Below are positions 4,339-16,198 of a stretch of 64,000 nucleotides of DNA, in pieces. The notes beneath the pieces were generated by a model. It did no database searches and was not told the origin of the DNA. It saw nothing but the letters and a program-made list of their open reading frames with translations. The translations under genes and the position numbers were made by a program. The stretch comes from Thermus aquaticus (GTDB taxonomy: Bacteria > Deinococcota > Deinococci > Deinococcales > Thermaceae): assembly GCF_001280255.1 (NCBI RefSeq), contig NZ_LHCI01000106.1:479907-543906 (forward strand), read 5' to 3'. Every line of letters starts with the position of its first letter. Position 1 is the stretch's first letter.

Positions 4339-6952
4339 GGATCTTGCCCGGGACGTAGATCTCCTTGACGATCTCCTTGCCCTCCAGGTGGGCCTGGACG
4401 TTTTTCACCTTGAGGGCCTCGGCCCGGGCCACCTCCAGGGGGGCGTCCTTGGGGATCTGGATGGTGCCCCGCACCCGGCCGTTCACCTGCACGGCCACCT
4501 CCACCACGTCCTTCTCCAGGGCCTCCGGGTCCAGCTCGGGCCAGCCCGCCTCAAAGAGGCTATTGGGCCAGAACCAGTGCCAAAGCTCCTCGGCCAGGTG
4601 GGGGGCGAAGGGGAAGAGCATCTGCAGGTAGTAGCGGATGGCGGTGCGGTAGAGGGGGGTGACGGGGCGCTCCCGGCGGTACTCGTAGAGGGCGTTCAGG
4701 AACTCCATGAGAGCGGCGATGGCGGTGTTGAAGCGCAGGGCCTCGAGGTCCTCCGTCACCTTCTTGAGGGTGGCGTGGAGCTTTCCGTAGAGCTCCCGGT
4801 CGGCCCCCTCCAGCGCCTCTTTCTGGAACCTACCCGAGATCTTCTCCAGCTCGGAGCGGTCCTCGGCCACCCGCCTATAGATCCGGTTCAGGAAGCGCCA
4901 GGCCCCCTGGACCCCCTCCTCGGTCCAGACCATCTCGTTCTCGGGAGGGGCGGCGAAGAGGATGGTGATGCGGGCGATGTCGGCCCCCTCCTCCTTCACG
5001 AAGGGCCCCACCATGACCCCGTTGCCCTTGGACTTGCTCATCACCGCGGGCTTCCAGAGGTGCACGGTACCGTCCTCGTGGGGCCTGAGCTCGGCCCCCA
5101 TCTTCTTCACGTCCTCCAGGGAAAGCTCCCTTTCCTGGACCTCCAGGCGGATGCGGGTGGGCTCGGGAAGGCGGACCCTCTCCCCTTCCACCTCCACAGG
5201 GCCGAAGTCCGTCCAGGCCAGGACCATGCCCTGGGTGAAGAGGCCCTTGAAGGGCTCCTCCACCTCCACCATCCCCAGGTCGTGGAGGAACTTGGTGAAG
5301 AAGCGGCTGTAGAGGAGGTGCAGCACGGCGTGCTCCACCCCGCCGATGTACTGGTCCACCGGCATCCAGAAGTTGGCCTTCCCGGGGTCAAAGGGGAGGC
5401 GGTCGTTGTGGGGGTCGGTGTAGCGGAGGTAGTACCAGCTGCTGTCAAAGAAGGTGTCCATGGTGTCGGTGTCCCGCTTGGCGGGGCCGCCGCATTTGGG
5501 GCAGGTGGTCTCGTAGAACTCGGGGTGGGCCTCCAGGGGGCTTTTCCCCTTGGGCCGGATGTCCTCAATGTCCTTGAGGTCGGGGAGGAGGACGGGAAGC
5601 TCTTCCTCGGGGACGGGCACCACGCCGCAGGTGGGGCAGTGGACCATGGGGATGGGGGTGCCCCAGTAGCGCTGGCGGCTGATGAGCCAGTCCCGGAGGC
5701 GGTAGGTGACCCTGGCCTTCCCCAGGCCCTTTTCCTCCAGCCAGCGGGTGATCCGCCCCTTGGCCTCCTCACTCATGAGGCCGTCAAAGGGCCCCGAGTT
5801 CACCAGAACGCCGGGCTCCTCGTAGGCCCTTTCCAGGGGCTCGGGGAGGGGTTCTCCCGGCCGCTCCACCACCTTCTTGATGGGGAGGCCGAACTTCTTG
5901 GCGAACTCGTAATCCCTCTGGTCGTGGGCGGGCACGGCCATGATGGCCCCGGTGCCGTAGCCAAAGAGGACGTAGTCGGCGGTGAAGATGGGGATCCTCT
6001 CCCCAGTGGCGGGGTTTAGGGCGTAGGCCCCCAGGAAGACCCCGGTCTTCTCCCTCCCTTCGGCCTGGCGCTCAATCTCCGTCTTGCGCTTGGCGGCCTC
6101 CACGTAGGCCAGGACCTCCTCCCGCCGCTCGGGGGCGGCGAGCTCCAGGGTGAGGGGGTGCTCCGGGGCCAGGACCATGAAGGTGGCCCCGAAGAGGGTG
6201 TCGGGGCGGGTGGTGAAGACGGCGATCCGCTCCTCCCTCCCCTCCACGGGGAAGAGGATCTCCGCCCCCTCCGATCGGCCGATCCAGGCCCTCTGCATGG
6301 CCTTGACCTTCTCCGGCCAGTCCAGGCCCTCGAGGTCCTGCAAAAGCCGGTCGGCGTAGGCGGTGATGCGGAGGTACCACTGCGTGAGTTCCCGCTTCTC
6401 CACGGGGGTGTCCTCGTGCCGCCAGCACCGCCCTTCCACCACCTGCTCGTTGGCCAGGACCGTCTGGCACTTGGGGCACCAGTTGACCAGCCCCCCCGCC
6501 CGGTAGGCCAGGCCCTTCTCCCACATCTTGATGAAGATCCACTGGTTCCAGCGGTAGTAGTCGGGCTCGCAGGTGGTGACCTCCCGGTCCCAGTCGTAGA
6601 GGATGCCCATGAGCTCCAGGCTCTCCTTGGCCTGGCGGATGTTCTCGTAGGTCCAGTCCCGGGGGTGGAGGCCGAACTTAAGGGCGGCGTTCTCCGCCGG
6701 AAGCCCGAAGGCGTCCCAGCCCATGGGGTGGAGGACCTCGTAGCCCTGGACCTTGCGGAAGCGGGCCAGGACGTCCCCCATGGTGTAGTTCTTCAGGTGG
6801 CCCATGTGCAGGTCCCCGGAAGGGTAGGGGAACATGACCAGGACGTACTGCTTCCCCCTCTTCCCGGGGACCTCCTTGGCCTTCATGAAGCCCTTCTCTT
6901 TCCAGAAACGTTGCCACTTGGGCTCTATGGCGTGGGGGTTGTACTTCTCCAT
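4316..6952 (-). CDS. leuS: Leucyl-tRNA synthetase
   Basis: This class I aminoacyl-tRNA synthetase charges tRNA-Leu. The 878 residues equal the known Thermus LeuRS length. HIGH-type motif [11 protein letters not shown] is near residue 45; the CP1 editing domain with TTRPDTLFG follows; a zinc-binding [23 protein letters not shown] region and KMSKS ([11 protein letters not shown]) come later; the anticodon-binding domain is C-terminal. The start is the ATG at 6952 ([14 protein letters not shown]), preceded by GAGGAGG. An in-frame TTG at 6967 lies inside that ribosome-binding site and is less likely. The leader contains a terminator hairpin. Confidence 0.98.
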
Positions 6953-11272: not shown

Positions 11273-11836
11273 ATGAAGATCTACACCAAAACGGGAGACG
11301 CGGGGGAGACCGGGCTCTACGGGGACGAGCGGGTGGTGAAGGCCCACCCCCGGGTGGAGGCCTACGGCACGGTGGACGAGGCCAACAGCGCCATCGGCCT
11401 GGCGCGAAGCCTTCTGCCCAAGGAGCACCTGGACCTTCAGGACCTTCTGGAGCGCATCCAGAACGCCCTCTTTGACCTGGGGGCCGACCTGGCGACCCGC
11501 ATGGGAAGCCCCTATGAAAAGAACATTGCCCGCATGGACGCCGAGGACGTGGAAAACCTGGAGAGGGCCATAGACCGCTACCAGGAGGAAAGCCCCCCCT
11601 TCCGGGGCTTCATCCTGCCCGGTGGGCACCCGGCGGCCGCCGCCCTTCACCTGGCCCGCACCGTGGTGCGCCGGGCGGAACGCAAGGTGGTGGCCCTGAG
11701 CCGGGAGGAGCCGGTGAACCCGGAGACCATCCGCTACTTAAACCGCCTCTCCGACCTCCTCTTCGTCCTGGCCCGGGTGGTGAACGCCCGGGAAGGGGTC
11801 AGGGAGGAGGGCTGGCTGGTCAAGAAAAGGCGCTAG
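11273..11836 (+). CDS. Cob(I)alamin adenosyltransferase, PduO type
   Basis: Transfers the 5'-deoxyadenosyl group of ATP to Co(I) corrinoid to make adenosylcobalamin. The 187 residues are of PduO/MMAB type. The N-terminal ATP loop is MKIYTKTGDAGETGLYGDERV; VEAYGTVDEANSAIG and the later RTVVRRAERKVVAL...YLNRLSDLLFVLAR (with the Arg-x-x-Glu active-site helix) are clear. Thermus uses B12 enzymes such as methylmalonyl-CoA mutase, which may be the consumer. The start at 11273 is set by the leaderless TACAAT box. The 3' end overlaps the next, convergent ORF by 4 bases. Confidence 0.93.
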   Translation: MKIYTKTGDAGETGLYGDERVVKAHPRVEAYGTVDEANSAIGLARSLLPKEHLDLQDLLERIQNALFDLGADLATRMGSPYEKNIARMDAEDVENLERAIDRYQEESPPFRGFILPGGHPAAAALHLARTVVRRAERKVVALSREEPVNPETIRYLNRLSDLLFVLARVVNAREGVREEGWLVKKRR

Positions 11837-12117
11837 GGCCAGGGCTTGCCGTAGACCCGGACCTCGGCCCCGGGGAAGGCGTTTTCTAGGAGATCTTTAA
11901 GGAATAGGGCGGCGGAGGGCAGAAGCCCCCCGCAGGGGCCTTCCATGTAGAGGAAAAGGTACCGGGGCCGCCTGGGGGACTGGGAGAAGCCCAGGCATCC
12001 CTCGTACTCGGGAAAGTACTCGTAAAAGAGCTCCAGAAGGTCCCGCACCAGGTCCTTGGCCTCGGGCAGGGCCTCTATGGAGCTTCTGGGCTTGACCCAG
12101 AAGGTCATGGCCTTCAC
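11833..12117 (-). CDS. Hypothetical 94-residue protein divergent from NatA-like gene
   Basis: This small soluble protein (MTFWVKPRSS...LLELFYEYFPEYEGCLGFSQSPRRPRYLFLYMEGPCGG...VRVYGKPWP) has two Cys and many aromatics. No family is recognised. The start is GTG 12117, 6 bases after GATAAT; an ATG 9 bases later is also possible. It is divergent from the ABC-transporter operon and its promoter shares a -35 hexamer with it. Confidence 0.6.
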   Translation of the reverse strand: MKAMTFWVKPRSSIEALPEAKDLVRDLLELFYEYFPEYEGCLGFSQSPRRPRYLFLYMEGPCGGLLPSAALFLKDLLENAFPGAEVRVYGKPWP

Positions 12118-12123
12118 GCCTCC

Positions 12124-12173
12124 ATTATCCCCCTCCCAGGGGGGCTTGCAAAGTGATATCACACTGCTATAAT
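12124..12173. promoter_or_regulatory. Divergent promoter pair sharing one palindromic -35 hexamer
   Basis: TTGCAA (12146-12151) is its own reverse complement. Plus strand: 16-bp spacer then TATAAT (12168-12173), 6 bases before GTG 12180. Minus strand: 16-bp spacer then GATAAT (12129-12124), 6 bases before GTG 12117. The perfect palindrome GTGATATCAC (12153-12162) sits inside the plus-strand spacer and could be an operator. Confidence 0.75.
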
Positions 12174-12179
12174 GGGCTT

Positions 12180-12899
12180 GTGATCCAGGCCCAAGGCCTC
12201 ACCAAGCGCTATGGCCCCAAGACCGCCGTGGAGGGGCTATCCCTGAAGGTAGAGCGGGAAGAGGTCTACGCCCTCCTTGGCCCCAACGGGGCGGGCAAGA
12301 CCACCACGCTGAGGATGCTCGCCACCCTGGTGCGTCCCACGGCGGGAAGGGCGGAGGTGGCGGGGGTTGACGTGGGGAAGGAGCCCTTGGAAGTCCGCCG
12401 CCGCCTGGGCCTGGTGAATGGAGGGATGCGGGTCTACGACCGCCTCACGGGGCGGGAGATCCTGGCCTTCTTCGCTTCCTTCTACGGCCTCGAGGGCCGC
12501 GCCTTTAAGGAGGCCCTGGACTGGGTGGTGGCCCTTTTGGAGATGGAGGAGACCCTGGAGAAAAAGGTCCTGGAGATGTCCACGGGCATGCGGCAGAAGG
12601 TGGTCATCGCCCGGGCCATCCTCCACCGCCCCCCGGTCCTCCTCCTGGACGAGGCCACCGCGGGTCTGGATGTCTTCGCCAGGCGGGCCCTCCTGGACTT
12701 CGTGAAGACCTACCGGGACCTGGGGAACACCGTCCTCTACTCCACCCACGTCATGCCCGAGGCCGAGGAGGTGGCCGACCGGGTGGGCTTTTTGCACCAG
12801 GGGCGCCTGGTCTACGAGGGAAGCATGGAAGAGGCTTTGGCCATGGGGGAAGGAAGCCTGGAAAAAGCCTTCATCCGAAAGGTGAGGGAAGCGGCATGA
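12180..12899 (+). CDS. ABC transporter ATP-binding protein, NatA-like
   Basis: This 239-residue ATPase subunit pairs with the membrane protein encoded next. Walker A LLGPNGAGKTTTLRML (residues 30-45), signature region STGMRQKV (degenerate LSGGQ), Walker B PVLLLDEATAGLD and the H-loop YSTHVMPEAEEVADRVG are all present. The match to NatA-type exporters (Na+ or drug efflux) is by overall pattern and by the NatB-like partner. The start is GTG 12180 because TATAAT lies 6 bases before it; the frame upstream to 12153 would start before the transcription start. Confidence 0.9.
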   Translation: MIQAQGLTKRYGPKTAVEGLSLKVEREEVYALLGPNGAGKTTTLRMLATLVRPTAGRAEVAGVDVGKEPLEVRRRLGLVNGGMRVYDRLTGREILAFFASFYGLEGRAFKEALDWVVALLEMEETLEKKVLEMSTGMRQKVVIARAILHRPPVLLLDEATAGLDVFARRALLDFVKTYRDLGNTVLYSTHVMPEAEEVADRVGFLHQGRLVYEGSMEEALAMGEGSLEKAFIRKVREAA

Positions 12900-14074
12900 A
12901 ACCCGTCTGGCGTATCGCGTGGAAGGAGTTGGTCCAGGTCTTCCGGGACCGGAAGCTCGTCTTCTCCACCCTAGTTCTCCCCGTACTCCTCATGCCGGTC
13001 TTCATGTTCGGCCCCCACCTCTTCCTCTCCCGCCTCCTGGAAGGGACCTCGGCCAAGGTCCAGGAGGTGGCCGTGGCCGGGCTTCCCGAGGAGGCCCTGG
13101 AAGCCCTCCTTAAGGCCAACCTGGCGCCAAAGCCCGTAGAAGACCCGGAAAAGGCGGTGCGGGAAGGAAAGTACCCCGTGGGCGTGGTCTACGAGGGGGG
13201 CCGCTACCGGGTCTTCGGCCGCCTGGCGGGAGGGGTTTCGGAAAGCCAGGTGGCGGTGGGCAAGGCGCAGGCCGCCCTCCAGGGCCTCAAAGAGAGGAAG
13301 GTGGCCGAGGCCCTGGCGGCGAAGGGGATTTCCCTGGACCTCCTCCATCCCTTTCAGGTGGAGACCGTGGACGCCTCGCCCCCTCGGGAAAAGGCGGGGG
13401 GGCTATTGGGCTTCCTCCTCCCCTTCTTCCTGGTGAGCTTCATCCTCTCCGGGGGGCAGGTGGTGGCGGTGGACGCCACCGCGGGGGAGAAGGAGAAGGG
13501 GACCCTCGAGGCCCTCCTCGCCGCCCCCGTTCCCCTCCTCCACCTGGCCCTGGGCAAGACTCTGGCCACGGTGACCATGGCCCTCCTTTCCGGGGTGGCG
13601 GGGCTATTGGGCTTGGCCCTGGGAGGGGTTCTGAGCGCCCGCCTGGGCGGGGAGCTCCTCGGCAAAGGGGGTCAGGTCCTCTCCCTGGGAGGGCAGATCC
13701 AGATGGACGGGGGAAGCTTCCTGGCCCTCTTCCTCACCGCCTTTCTCCTGGCCCTCTTCATGGGGGCGGTCATGGTGGCCCTGGGGCTCTACGCCCGGAG
13801 CTTCAAGGAGGCGCAAAGCTACATGGCCCCCCTCCTGCTCCTCGCCCTTTTCCCTTTGCTTTTCCTCCAGTTTCGGGGCTTTTTTGAGCTTCAACCCTGG
13901 CATCACCTGATCCCCCTCTTCAACACCGCCCTCCTCATGGACGCCCTCCTCAAGGGGCAGGCGGAGGGCCTCCAGGTAGCCCTCACCTGGGGCTCCACCC
14001 TGGTCTACGGGGCTTTGGCCCTCCTCCTGGCGGTGCGGGTCTTCGCCCGGGAGGACGTGGTCTTCAGGAACTAA
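12896..14074 (+). CDS. ABC-2 type permease, NatB-like
   Basis: This 392-residue membrane subunit overlaps the ATPase gene by ATGA. Topology is typical of NatB/YhaP-type ABC-2 permeases: one N-terminal membrane segment (about residues 22-40), a large external domain (about 50-165) and five or six membrane segments afterwards. The conserved [25 protein letters not shown] loop contains the E-KE-GTLE motif of ABC-2 permeases. The substrate is unknown. The following four genes run in the same direction with tight spacing. Confidence 0.88.
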
Positions 14075-14087
14075 GGAGGCGGTCCTG

Positions 14088-14735
14088 GTGTTTTTGGGGC
14101 GGTACGTGGGCACGGTGCGGGAGCCGGGCTTCCACTTCGCCAACCCCCTGGCGGCGAGAAAGCGCATCTCCCTAAGGGTCCACAACTTCACCTCGGATAA
14201 GCTCAAAGTAAACGACGCCCACGGCAACCCCATTGAGATCGCCGCGGTGGTGGTCTTCCGGGTGGTGGACACGGCCAAGGCCCTCTTCCAGGTGGAGAAC
14301 TACCAGGCCTTCGTGGCCATCCAGTCGGAGGCGGCCATCCGGGCCCTGGCGAGCCGCTACCCCTATGACGCCGAGGGCAAGTCCCTGCGGGGCAACCCCG
14401 AGGAGATCGCCGAGGAGCTGAAGGCCGAGGTGGAGGAGAGGCTGAAGGTGGCGGGGGTGGAGGTCCTCGAGGCCCGCCTCACCCACCTGGCCTACGCCCC
14501 CGAGGTGGCCCGGGCCATGCTCCGCCGGCAGCAGGCCCTGGCGGTGGTGGCCGCCCGCCGGCTCTTCGTGGAGGCCGCCGTGGGTATGGTGCGGGAGGCC
14601 CTGGCGGGCCCCGAGGCGGCGGGGCTTCCCCTGGACGAGGAAAGGAAGGCGGCCATGGTCAACAACCTCATGGTGGCCCTGGTCTCCGAGGCCCAAGCCC
14701 AGCCCGTGGTCAACGTGGGCACGCTGTACACCTAA
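14088..14735 (+). CDS. SPFH/Band 7-domain protein, N-terminally short
   Basis: This 215-residue protein matches the SPFH (stomatin/prohibitin/flotillin) fold: [32 protein letters not shown], then [39 protein letters not shown] and a C-terminal coiled helix rich in Ala and Glu. Family members usually begin with a membrane hairpin and about 50 extra residues; here the ORF starts at GTG 14088, right at FLGRYVG. AAGGAGG at 14073-14079 fits that GTG. The preceding codons read K-E-A-V-L, still like the family, up to the natB stop codon, so the missing N-terminus may have been deleted. SPFH proteins form membrane-microdomain scaffolds. Confidence 0.8.
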
Positions 14736-14743
14736 GGAGGCGG

Positions 14744-14944
14744 GTGAAGGGAAAGCCCGAGGGAAAAAAGGCCTTTCTCCTGAGGCTGGACCCGAGGCTT
14801 TACCGGGTGCTGGAGAAGTGGGCCCACGACGAGCTCCGGAGCGTGAACGCCCAGATAGAATACCTCCTCAAGGAAGCGGCCAAAAGGGCGGGGCGGTGGA
14901 AGGATGAGGACGAGGCTGGAGCCCAAGAGGGACGGGAACCCTAA
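14744..14944 (+). CDS. Arc-type ribbon-helix-helix protein
   Basis: This 66-residue protein is a strand-helix-helix unit (KAFLLRLDPRLYRVLEKWAHDELRSVNAQIEYLLKEAAKRAG) typical of Arc/HicB-like ribbon-helix-helix DNA-binding proteins. The conserved pattern R-S-V-N-A-Q-I-E-x-L-L is the second helix. From family knowledge, such a gene often sits immediately after an SPFH gene. It may regulate this operon. Start GTG 14744 with AAGGAGG three bases before it (short spacing); the tail overlaps the next ORF. Confidence 0.8.
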   Translation: MKGKPEGKKAFLLRLDPRLYRVLEKWAHDELRSVNAQIEYLLKEAAKRAGRWKDEDEAGAQEGREP

Positions 14945-15428
14945 AGCGCTCCTTCTAGCCCTCTACCTGGCCTCCCTCGTGGCCCTGGGCTTCCTCGCGG
15001 CCACAGCGGAGGCCTCGGAAAGAACCTTCCTCCTCGCCCTGGTGGCCGTGGATGCCCTGGTCATGGGAGCCCTCTTCGTTTGGCTTGCGGGCCTTCCCGA
15101 AAAGCTCTTCTACGTTCTGGAGGGCCCTTTCCTGGCAATACACCACGCTTGGGGCCAGAGGAGGGTGCACCGCTCGGAGGTGGCGGCCGTGGTCCCCACG
15201 GCCTACGCCCTACCCCTCCTCGCCCTCGGACCCAAAGCCGAGATGCCCGGCTACTACCGGATGCGCTTCCGCTTCAGAACCCCCGCTTTCCCCCAGGGGC
15301 TTCCCGTGGAAGCCCTGGTGGGGGCGAGGCGGGGAGAAGGGGTTCTCCTGGTCCTCAAGGACGACACGGGCCTCCTCCTGAATCCCGATGACCCCAAGCC
15401 CCTCATCTCCTGGAAGGAGGCGGTATGA
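14904..15428 (+). CDS. Two-TM membrane protein with soluble C-terminal domain
   Basis: This 174-residue protein has two membrane segments (about residues 14-33 and 41-65), then a soluble domain with beta character (MPGYYRMRFRFRTPAFPQ...VLLVLKDDTGLLLNPDDPKPLISWKEAV) that resembles bacterial PH-like domains, by pattern only. The ATG at 14904 overlaps the ribbon-helix-helix gene by 41 bases; a later start is possible. It ends in an ATGA overlap with the CPBP protease gene. Confidence 0.65.
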   Translation: MRTRLEPKRDGNPKALLLALYLASLVALGFLAATAEASERTFLLALVAVDALVMGALFVWLAGLPEKLFYVLEGPFLAIHHAWGQRRVHRSEVAAVVPTAYALPLLALGPKAEMPGYYRMRFRFRTPAFPQGLPVEALVGARRGEGVLLVLKDDTGLLLNPDDPKPLISWKEAV

Positions 15429-16198
15429 AGGCCCTTTACTGGACCTACGGCCTCTCCTGGGGCCTGGCCCTCCTGGCCTACGCCTTGGGGGTTAGGCCGG
15501 AATCCCCAGCCATCCTGGCCCTGGGGGTTCTCTACATGTGGGTGCCGGGCCTGGTGGCCCTCCTTTTCGCCCGGAGAGAGGGGATAAGGCTTCCCCTGGC
15601 CTTCCGGCCCAACCGCTACTGGCTTTTGGCCTGGCTCTTCCCCGTTCCCCTCACCCTCCTCTCCGTCCCCCTCAGCCTCCCCTTCGGGGCCTACAGGGGC
15701 CTGGCCTGGACCTTTCCCGAGGGCCCACCGCCCCTCCCCGAACCCCTGCTCCTCGCCCTTGTCCTCCTCCAGGGGCTTTTCGCCGGGGCCACGGCGAACC
15801 TCTTGGTCGCCTTGGGGGAAGAGCTCATGTGGCGGGGGTACCTTTGGGAAAGGGTTAGGGAGCGGGGCTTTTGGCCCGCCACCCTGGAGATCGGCTTCCA
15901 CTGGGGCCTCTGGCACGCCCCCATGATCCTCCTTTTCGGCCATAACTACCCGGACGAGCGCCTCCTGGGCGTGCCCATGATGATCCTCTTCACCCTCCTC
16001 CTGACCCCGGTCCTCCTCTACGTGCGGGAAAAGGGGGGTTCGGTCTTTCCTGCCGCCCTCCTCCACGGCACCCTGAACGGGGTGGCCGGGCTTTCCCTGG
16101 TTCTAGTGGAGCGCACCAACGACCTCCTCGTGGGGGTGGGGCTTCCTGGCCTCTTCCTCCTGGCCCTCTTTAACCTCTGGCTCAGGAGGCGGGTATAG
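15425..16198 (+). CDS. CPBP-family intramembrane metalloprotease (CAAX-like)
   Basis: This 257-residue multi-pass membrane protein has the three CPBP/Rce1 motifs: EELMWRGYLWE (EExxxR, about residues 137-147), a following His in EIGFHWGLWHAP and HGTLNG (HxxxN) near residue 219. CPBP proteases process prenyl proteins, bacteriocins or anti-sigma factors in different hosts. Proteins in which a NatB-like permease is fused to a CPBP protease are known, so the neighbourhood with natAB makes a joint role plausible. Last gene of the operon; the rapZ -10 box overlaps its stop. Confidence 0.88.
   Translation: MKALYWTYGLSWGLALLAYALGVRPESPAILALGVLYMWVPGLVALLFARREGIRLPLAFRPNRYWLLAWLFPVPLTLLSVPLSLPFGAYRGLAWTFPEGPPPLPEPLLLALVLLQGLFAGATANLLVALGEELMWRGYLWERVRERGFWPATLEIGFHWGLWHAPMILLFGHNYPDERLLGVPMMILFTLLLTPVLLYVREKGGSVFPAALLHGTLNGVAGLSLVLVERTNDLLVGVGLPGLFLLALFNLWLRRRV

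Follow-up and report, generated by a model that had tools for sequence, protein, structure and literature searches.

We identified the palindrome TGATATCA as the probable operator of an operon encoding an ABC transporter, an SPFH protein and a ribbon-helix-helix (RHH) protein in the window, i.e., the whole 64,000-nucleotide stretch of Thermus aquaticus DNA analyzed here. We put the probability at roughly three in four that this site is bound by the operon's own RHH protein and mediates autoregulation; judged from sequence comparisons, the Arc-like protein probably uses it for switching off its own operon. The relevant features of the window are as follows.

12154–12161 (no strand): candidate operator core TGATATCA, within the full palindrome GTGATATCAC at 12153–12162; exact in 21/21 RHH-bearing Thermus genomes and 70/76 SPFH-RHH loci
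12146–12151 (+): TTGCAA, −35 element for the ABC-SPFH-RHH genes, separated from the −10 by 16 bp in 6/6 genomes of its subgroup
12146–12151: the same TTGCAA, also at the left outer half-site position (logo −12 to −7; consensus TAYCAA, 4/6 letters match)
12166–12172 (+): right outer half-site GCTATAA (logo +9 to +15; consensus GATATCA), in the 11-bp register and overlapping the −10
12168–12173 (+): TATAAT, −10 of the ABC-SPFH-RHH operon, with subgroup variants at this position
12180–12899 (+): ABC transporter ATPase (Pfam PF00005), leaderless-type, GTG start at a position common to relatives
12896–14074 (+): ABC-2 type permease (Pfam PF12698)
14088–14735 (+): SPFH/Band 7 membrane-scaffold protein (Pfam PF01145, E = 7.7e-25)
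14744–14944 (+): 66-residue Arc/CopG-type RHH protein, proposed autorepressor (RHH_5; Arc profile match)
14904–15428 (+): 174-residue protein, operon member; no Pfam family, present here in most relatives
15425–16198 (+): probable CPBP-type membrane protein, operon member; conserved synteny, assigned by sequence character
12124–12129 (−): GATAAT, −10 of the 94-residue gene, with no conserved −35; [ACG]ATAAT genus-wide
11833–12117 (−): 94-residue conserved hypothetical gene, neighbor of the operon; in 49/50 family genomes

Conservation of the palindrome

TGATATCA is found once upstream of the ABC-SPFH-RHH operon in all 21 Thermus genomes encoding the 66-residue RHH protein, including G014 and G008, in which the 94-residue gene and the operon are not seen as neighbors. 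It is absent from G016 and G026, in which SPFH and RHH have been lost but the ATPase and permease genes are still divergent from the 94-residue gene. The site and the RHH gene are thus missing together in these two genomes, possibly as a result of one evolutionary event. Thermus genomes contain the pattern RTGATATCAY about once each, before the ABC-SPFH-RHH operon, and the reversed control pattern is rarer. The sequence-only reading had guessed that GTGATATCAC could be a repressor site, and conservation strongly supports this guess. It had also proposed a search at other promoters, which returned exactly one copy of GTGATATCAC in the whole genome; a multi-gene regulon in the window genome is therefore unsupported and was rejected. 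The outer half-sites are imperfect in the window. As a separate observation, RTGATATCAY is present 12 times, and the reversed control twice, in G055, a Deinococcota genome for which no RHH match is listed.

In a scan covering 84,980 species genomes, RHH protein similarity yielded 80 loci in seven phyla (assigned from record titles), of which 76 were usable; selection was by protein similarity only, and the DNA motif was not used. In 70 of the 76 loci, the 350 bp preceding the SPFH homology contain exact TGATATCA, compared with three of 76 for the next-best palindrome of equal GC content; TGATATCA never occurs inside the SPFH gene (0/76). Across these loci it is mostly located 18–50 bp before the SPFH start codon, and in most of the other-genus loci that were fetched it is upstream of the SPFH gene with no ABC genes between them. 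Most of the exceptions checked have one-letter variants of TGATATCA, and G075 and L237 have no recognizable site. The sequence logo is TGATAT-N5-TGATATCA-N5-ATATCA, with symmetric outer half-sites in an 11-bp register; conserved, repeated half-sites at 10–11 bp precede the RHH operon.

An independent set consisted of six SPFH-RHH plasmid loci that were unused in defining the motif. The exact site is present in four of the six (Deinococcus, Qipengyuania, and Nonomuraea) and a degenerate site in Parabacteroides and Rhizobium; for the two records that carry no annotation, an SPFH gene is presumed on the basis of the layout. The annotations of Qipengyuania and Parabacteroides place an SPFH domain-containing protein beside a HicB-type or Arc family DNA-binding protein. 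Qipengyuania (Pseudomonadota) adds an eighth phylum to Deinococcota, Cyanobacteriota, Bacillota, Actinomycetota, Acidobacteriota, Bacteroidota, and Gemmatimonadota.

RHH copies are also found beside ABC genes without SPFH: a second copy (G049b) in another genus (locus L141 of G049, 4977–5171), and one on a Thermus thermophilus plasmid (L248, 3977–4168). No exact TGATATCA is present near these two units, which would mean that they have a different operator or that only SPFH operons are targeted.

Operon proteins and proposed autoregulation

The RHH fold of the 66-residue protein is indicated by Pfam and by comparison with known structures. RHH_5 was detected in 15 of 15 aligned members (best E = 3.6e-6) and Arc in 10 of 15; these scores are weak singly and consistent across the family, and the window's own member alone falls below the Pfam cut-off. 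The profile matches Arc repressor structures with an E value of 7.6e-6, and in this match a conserved R/K-F-x-L-R strand aligns with the DNA-contacting strand of Arc, including its Arg. The AlphaFold model of a lone chain contains one confident helix and no strand, which may be expected because the RHH fold forms as a dimer. The RHH protein is found in 49 of 111 Deinococcota genomes, and the distribution of SPFH across the family genomes matches that of RHH.

The SPFH domain is assigned by PF01145 (E = 7.7e-25). An N-terminal membrane segment is usual, not universal, in the SPFH/Band 7 superfamily; it is absent from the window copy and present in relatives. In the region 14074–14100, the start of the window gene is approximately 72 codons later than in relatives; this looks like an in-frame deletion between the SPFH domain and the end of the permease, or like a fault in the assembly. 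The permease (12896–14074) has a below-cut-off likeness to an NCBIfam model of permeases that are joined to CPBP membrane proteases; together with the CPBP-like gene (15425–16198) in the same operon, this hints at a peptide-immunity-like function. A defense-system reading was discarded, as PADLOC returned only generic ATPase matches.

In the window, the putative operator core sits in the spacer of the ABC promoter, with the outer half-sites overlapping the −35 TTGCAA and the −10 TATAAT. RHH dimers on this operator would block RNA polymerase at the ABC promoter, and such exclusion would amount to negative autoregulation. If repression were lifted, possibly through a membrane-stress state or the SPFH protein, the exporter, the scaffold, and the membrane protein would be expressed jointly; a role of the SPFH protein as sensor or anti-repressor is speculation. 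Only tentatively do we extend this scheme to a membrane-homeostasis regulon common to eight or more phyla: an SPFH ring might sense the membrane state and release or capture the RHH repressor of TGATATCA, the ABC exporter having been added in Thermus; this wider model is possible and somewhat doubtful.

Since SPFH and RHH nearly always travel together, co-occurrence cannot single out RHH as the binder, and the palindrome might instead be the operator of a different, widely conserved regulator encoded elsewhere. The RHH-ABC pairs that have neither SPFH nor an exact site agree with this alternative. However, a site count of approximately one per Thermus genome is consistent with a local autoregulator, the 11-bp half-site register fits RHH proteins, and the sites disappear together with RHH; we therefore consider a regulator encoded elsewhere unlikely.

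Relation to known systems

Arc (phage P22), CopG, and the ParD/HicB-type antitoxins are small RHH autoregulators encoded in the operons they control, and RHH operators consist of repeated short half-sites at approximately 11 bp that overlap the core promoter. The system described here is similar in having a small RHH protein inside the operon proposed as its target, half-sites at approximately 11 bp, and overlap with the promoter. Unlike the ParD/HicB-type antitoxins, it has no toxin partner, the partner being an SPFH membrane scaffold and here also an ABC exporter. The half-site, TGATA(T), differs from that of Arc, and unlike Arc/CopG-type systems, the operator is almost invariant in sequence across eight phyla. 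SPFH proteins occur throughout bacteria, and we know of no described control for most of them.

A survey of prokaryotic SPFH operons (PMC2636767) describes NfeD partners for SPFH1, 2 and 5. Like the stomatin/NfeD, flotillin, and HflKC types, the present operon combines an SPFH gene with a conserved partner; text searching of the survey revealed neither a ribbon-helix-helix nor a CopG partner, and no operator is mentioned in the passages considered (PMC2636767). Among the matches listed for TGATATCA in the literature, all papers were unrelated, searches on SPFH with Arc, HicB or ribbon-helix-helix found no paper on the pairing, and no paper describing a TGATATCA operator was found in these searches. 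A fixed operator with a co-encoded regulator across eight phyla would provide a direct handle on when this type of SPFH protein is made, and the system is testable in many cultured hosts.

Promoter geometry and the 94-residue gene

The intergenic region was aligned and both promoters were scored in a genus comparison of 27 species. TTGCAA is present only in G000, G005, G013, G015, G018, and G020. In all six, which represent one Thermus subgroup, it is followed after 16 bp by the −10 of the ABC gene and after a further 6 bp by the start codon, the −10 at this place being TATAAT, TATGAT, TACAAT or TAACAT. In the other subgroup, TTGACC is located 15–17 bp upstream of TATCAT/TATCAC. The promoter register thus differs by approximately one helical turn between the subgroups, with TTGACC/TATCAT further upstream, while the palindrome is unchanged.

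This shift bears on a second alternative, that TGATATCA is conserved as part of the core promoter, an extended −10 (TGA-TATCAT), rather than as a protein operator. The TTGACC element at 15–17 bp from TATCAT/TATCAC in most Thermus genomes speaks for this reading. The window subgroup, however, uses TATAAT with the palindrome unchanged, and a promoter that moved by about one helical turn while the palindrome stayed argues against a pure promoter explanation; the palindrome as a −10 only is accordingly disfavored. Furthermore, the exact eight-letter symmetry and outer half-sites also occur in Bacteroidota and Cyanobacteriota, which have another promoter consensus, and are not promoter-like, and the site is gone with the loss of RHH in G016 and G026 despite their kept ABC genes. 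We regard the extended −10 as quite improbable, and the operator as the better account of the palindrome.

The sequence-only reading had started from the observation that TTGCAA (12146–12151) is self-complementary and identical on both strands. On the plus strand, a 16-bp spacer (12152–12167) leads to TATAAT (12168–12173), GGGCTT (six bases), and GTG at 12180; its minus-strand counterpart is a 16-bp spacer (12130–12145) followed by GATAAT (12129–12124), six bases, and GTG at 12117–12115. All letters and distances given in that reading are correct, and the leaderless-type architecture claimed for both directions holds, each −10 being six bases before a GTG. What did not survive is the proposal built on them, that two divergent leaderless promoters share a single palindromic −35 as a designed switch, so that expression of the ABC operon excludes that of the 94-residue gene and vice versa.

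The exact geometry in the window genome and the 17-bp spacer in G015 are in favor of a shared −35. In the order of genomes given above, however, the distances from TTGCAA to the −10 of the 94-residue gene are 16, 28, 28, 17, 25, and 23 bp; spacing usable toward both −10s is confined to G000 and G015 (2/6), four of the six have spacers of 23–28 bp, and none of the other genomes has such an arrangement, TTGCAA being found nowhere else. Because the 16-bp spacing to the ABC −10 is kept in 6/6 and the other distance is variable, TTGCAA is assigned as the −35 of the ABC promoter, and its link to the 94-residue gene looks coincidental from these alignments. An apparent shared promoter can thus be an operator half-site overlapping a −35.

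The 94-residue gene has [ACG]ATAAT 6–10 nt before its start codon in all 26 genomes scored, and its −10 is also visible in the sequence of G008. With spacers of 15–19 bp, the best −35 has a mean of 2.58 matches compared with 2.65 at random positions; the gene therefore has the form of a leaderless −10-motif promoter, with a −10 beside the start codon and a −35 at the random level. The −10 is kept in G001, G002, G022, and G025, from which the ABC operon is absent, in G014, where the operon is elsewhere, and in G008, which has the two on separate contigs. In Deinococcus-Thermus, a −10 beside the start codon suffices for transcription, usually without a −35 (PMC12340547), with which the stand-alone −10 of this gene agrees. 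The ABC gene start is also leaderless-type, but its promoter, unlike those of PMC12340547, additionally has a conserved −35 and the operator. As far as sequence can tell, the 94-residue gene is a bystander with its own stand-alone −10 promoter, outside the operator system.

Bidirectional bacterial promoters have divergent starts within tens of bases and share a symmetric −10 (PMC12825309, PMC10268837). The divergent starts in the window are likewise tens of bases apart, but only a −35 coincides here, in two of six genomes, and bidirectional promoters of E. coli do not compete at basal activity (PMC12825309). On the basis of the spacing and the neighbor-free copies of the 94-residue gene, the shared −35 was rejected as a conserved switch, and the model as a whole is highly improbable. 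In the window genome alone, the two promoters may exclude each other through chance geometry, which would not be a conserved mechanism.

The 94-residue protein has no Pfam or NCBIfam family match. It is carried by 49 of 50 family genomes, with identities of 49–60% in other genera and 74% in one. At L059 (G006), a frameshift or stop breaks the 94-residue gene, and the adjoining operator and ABC operon are intact.
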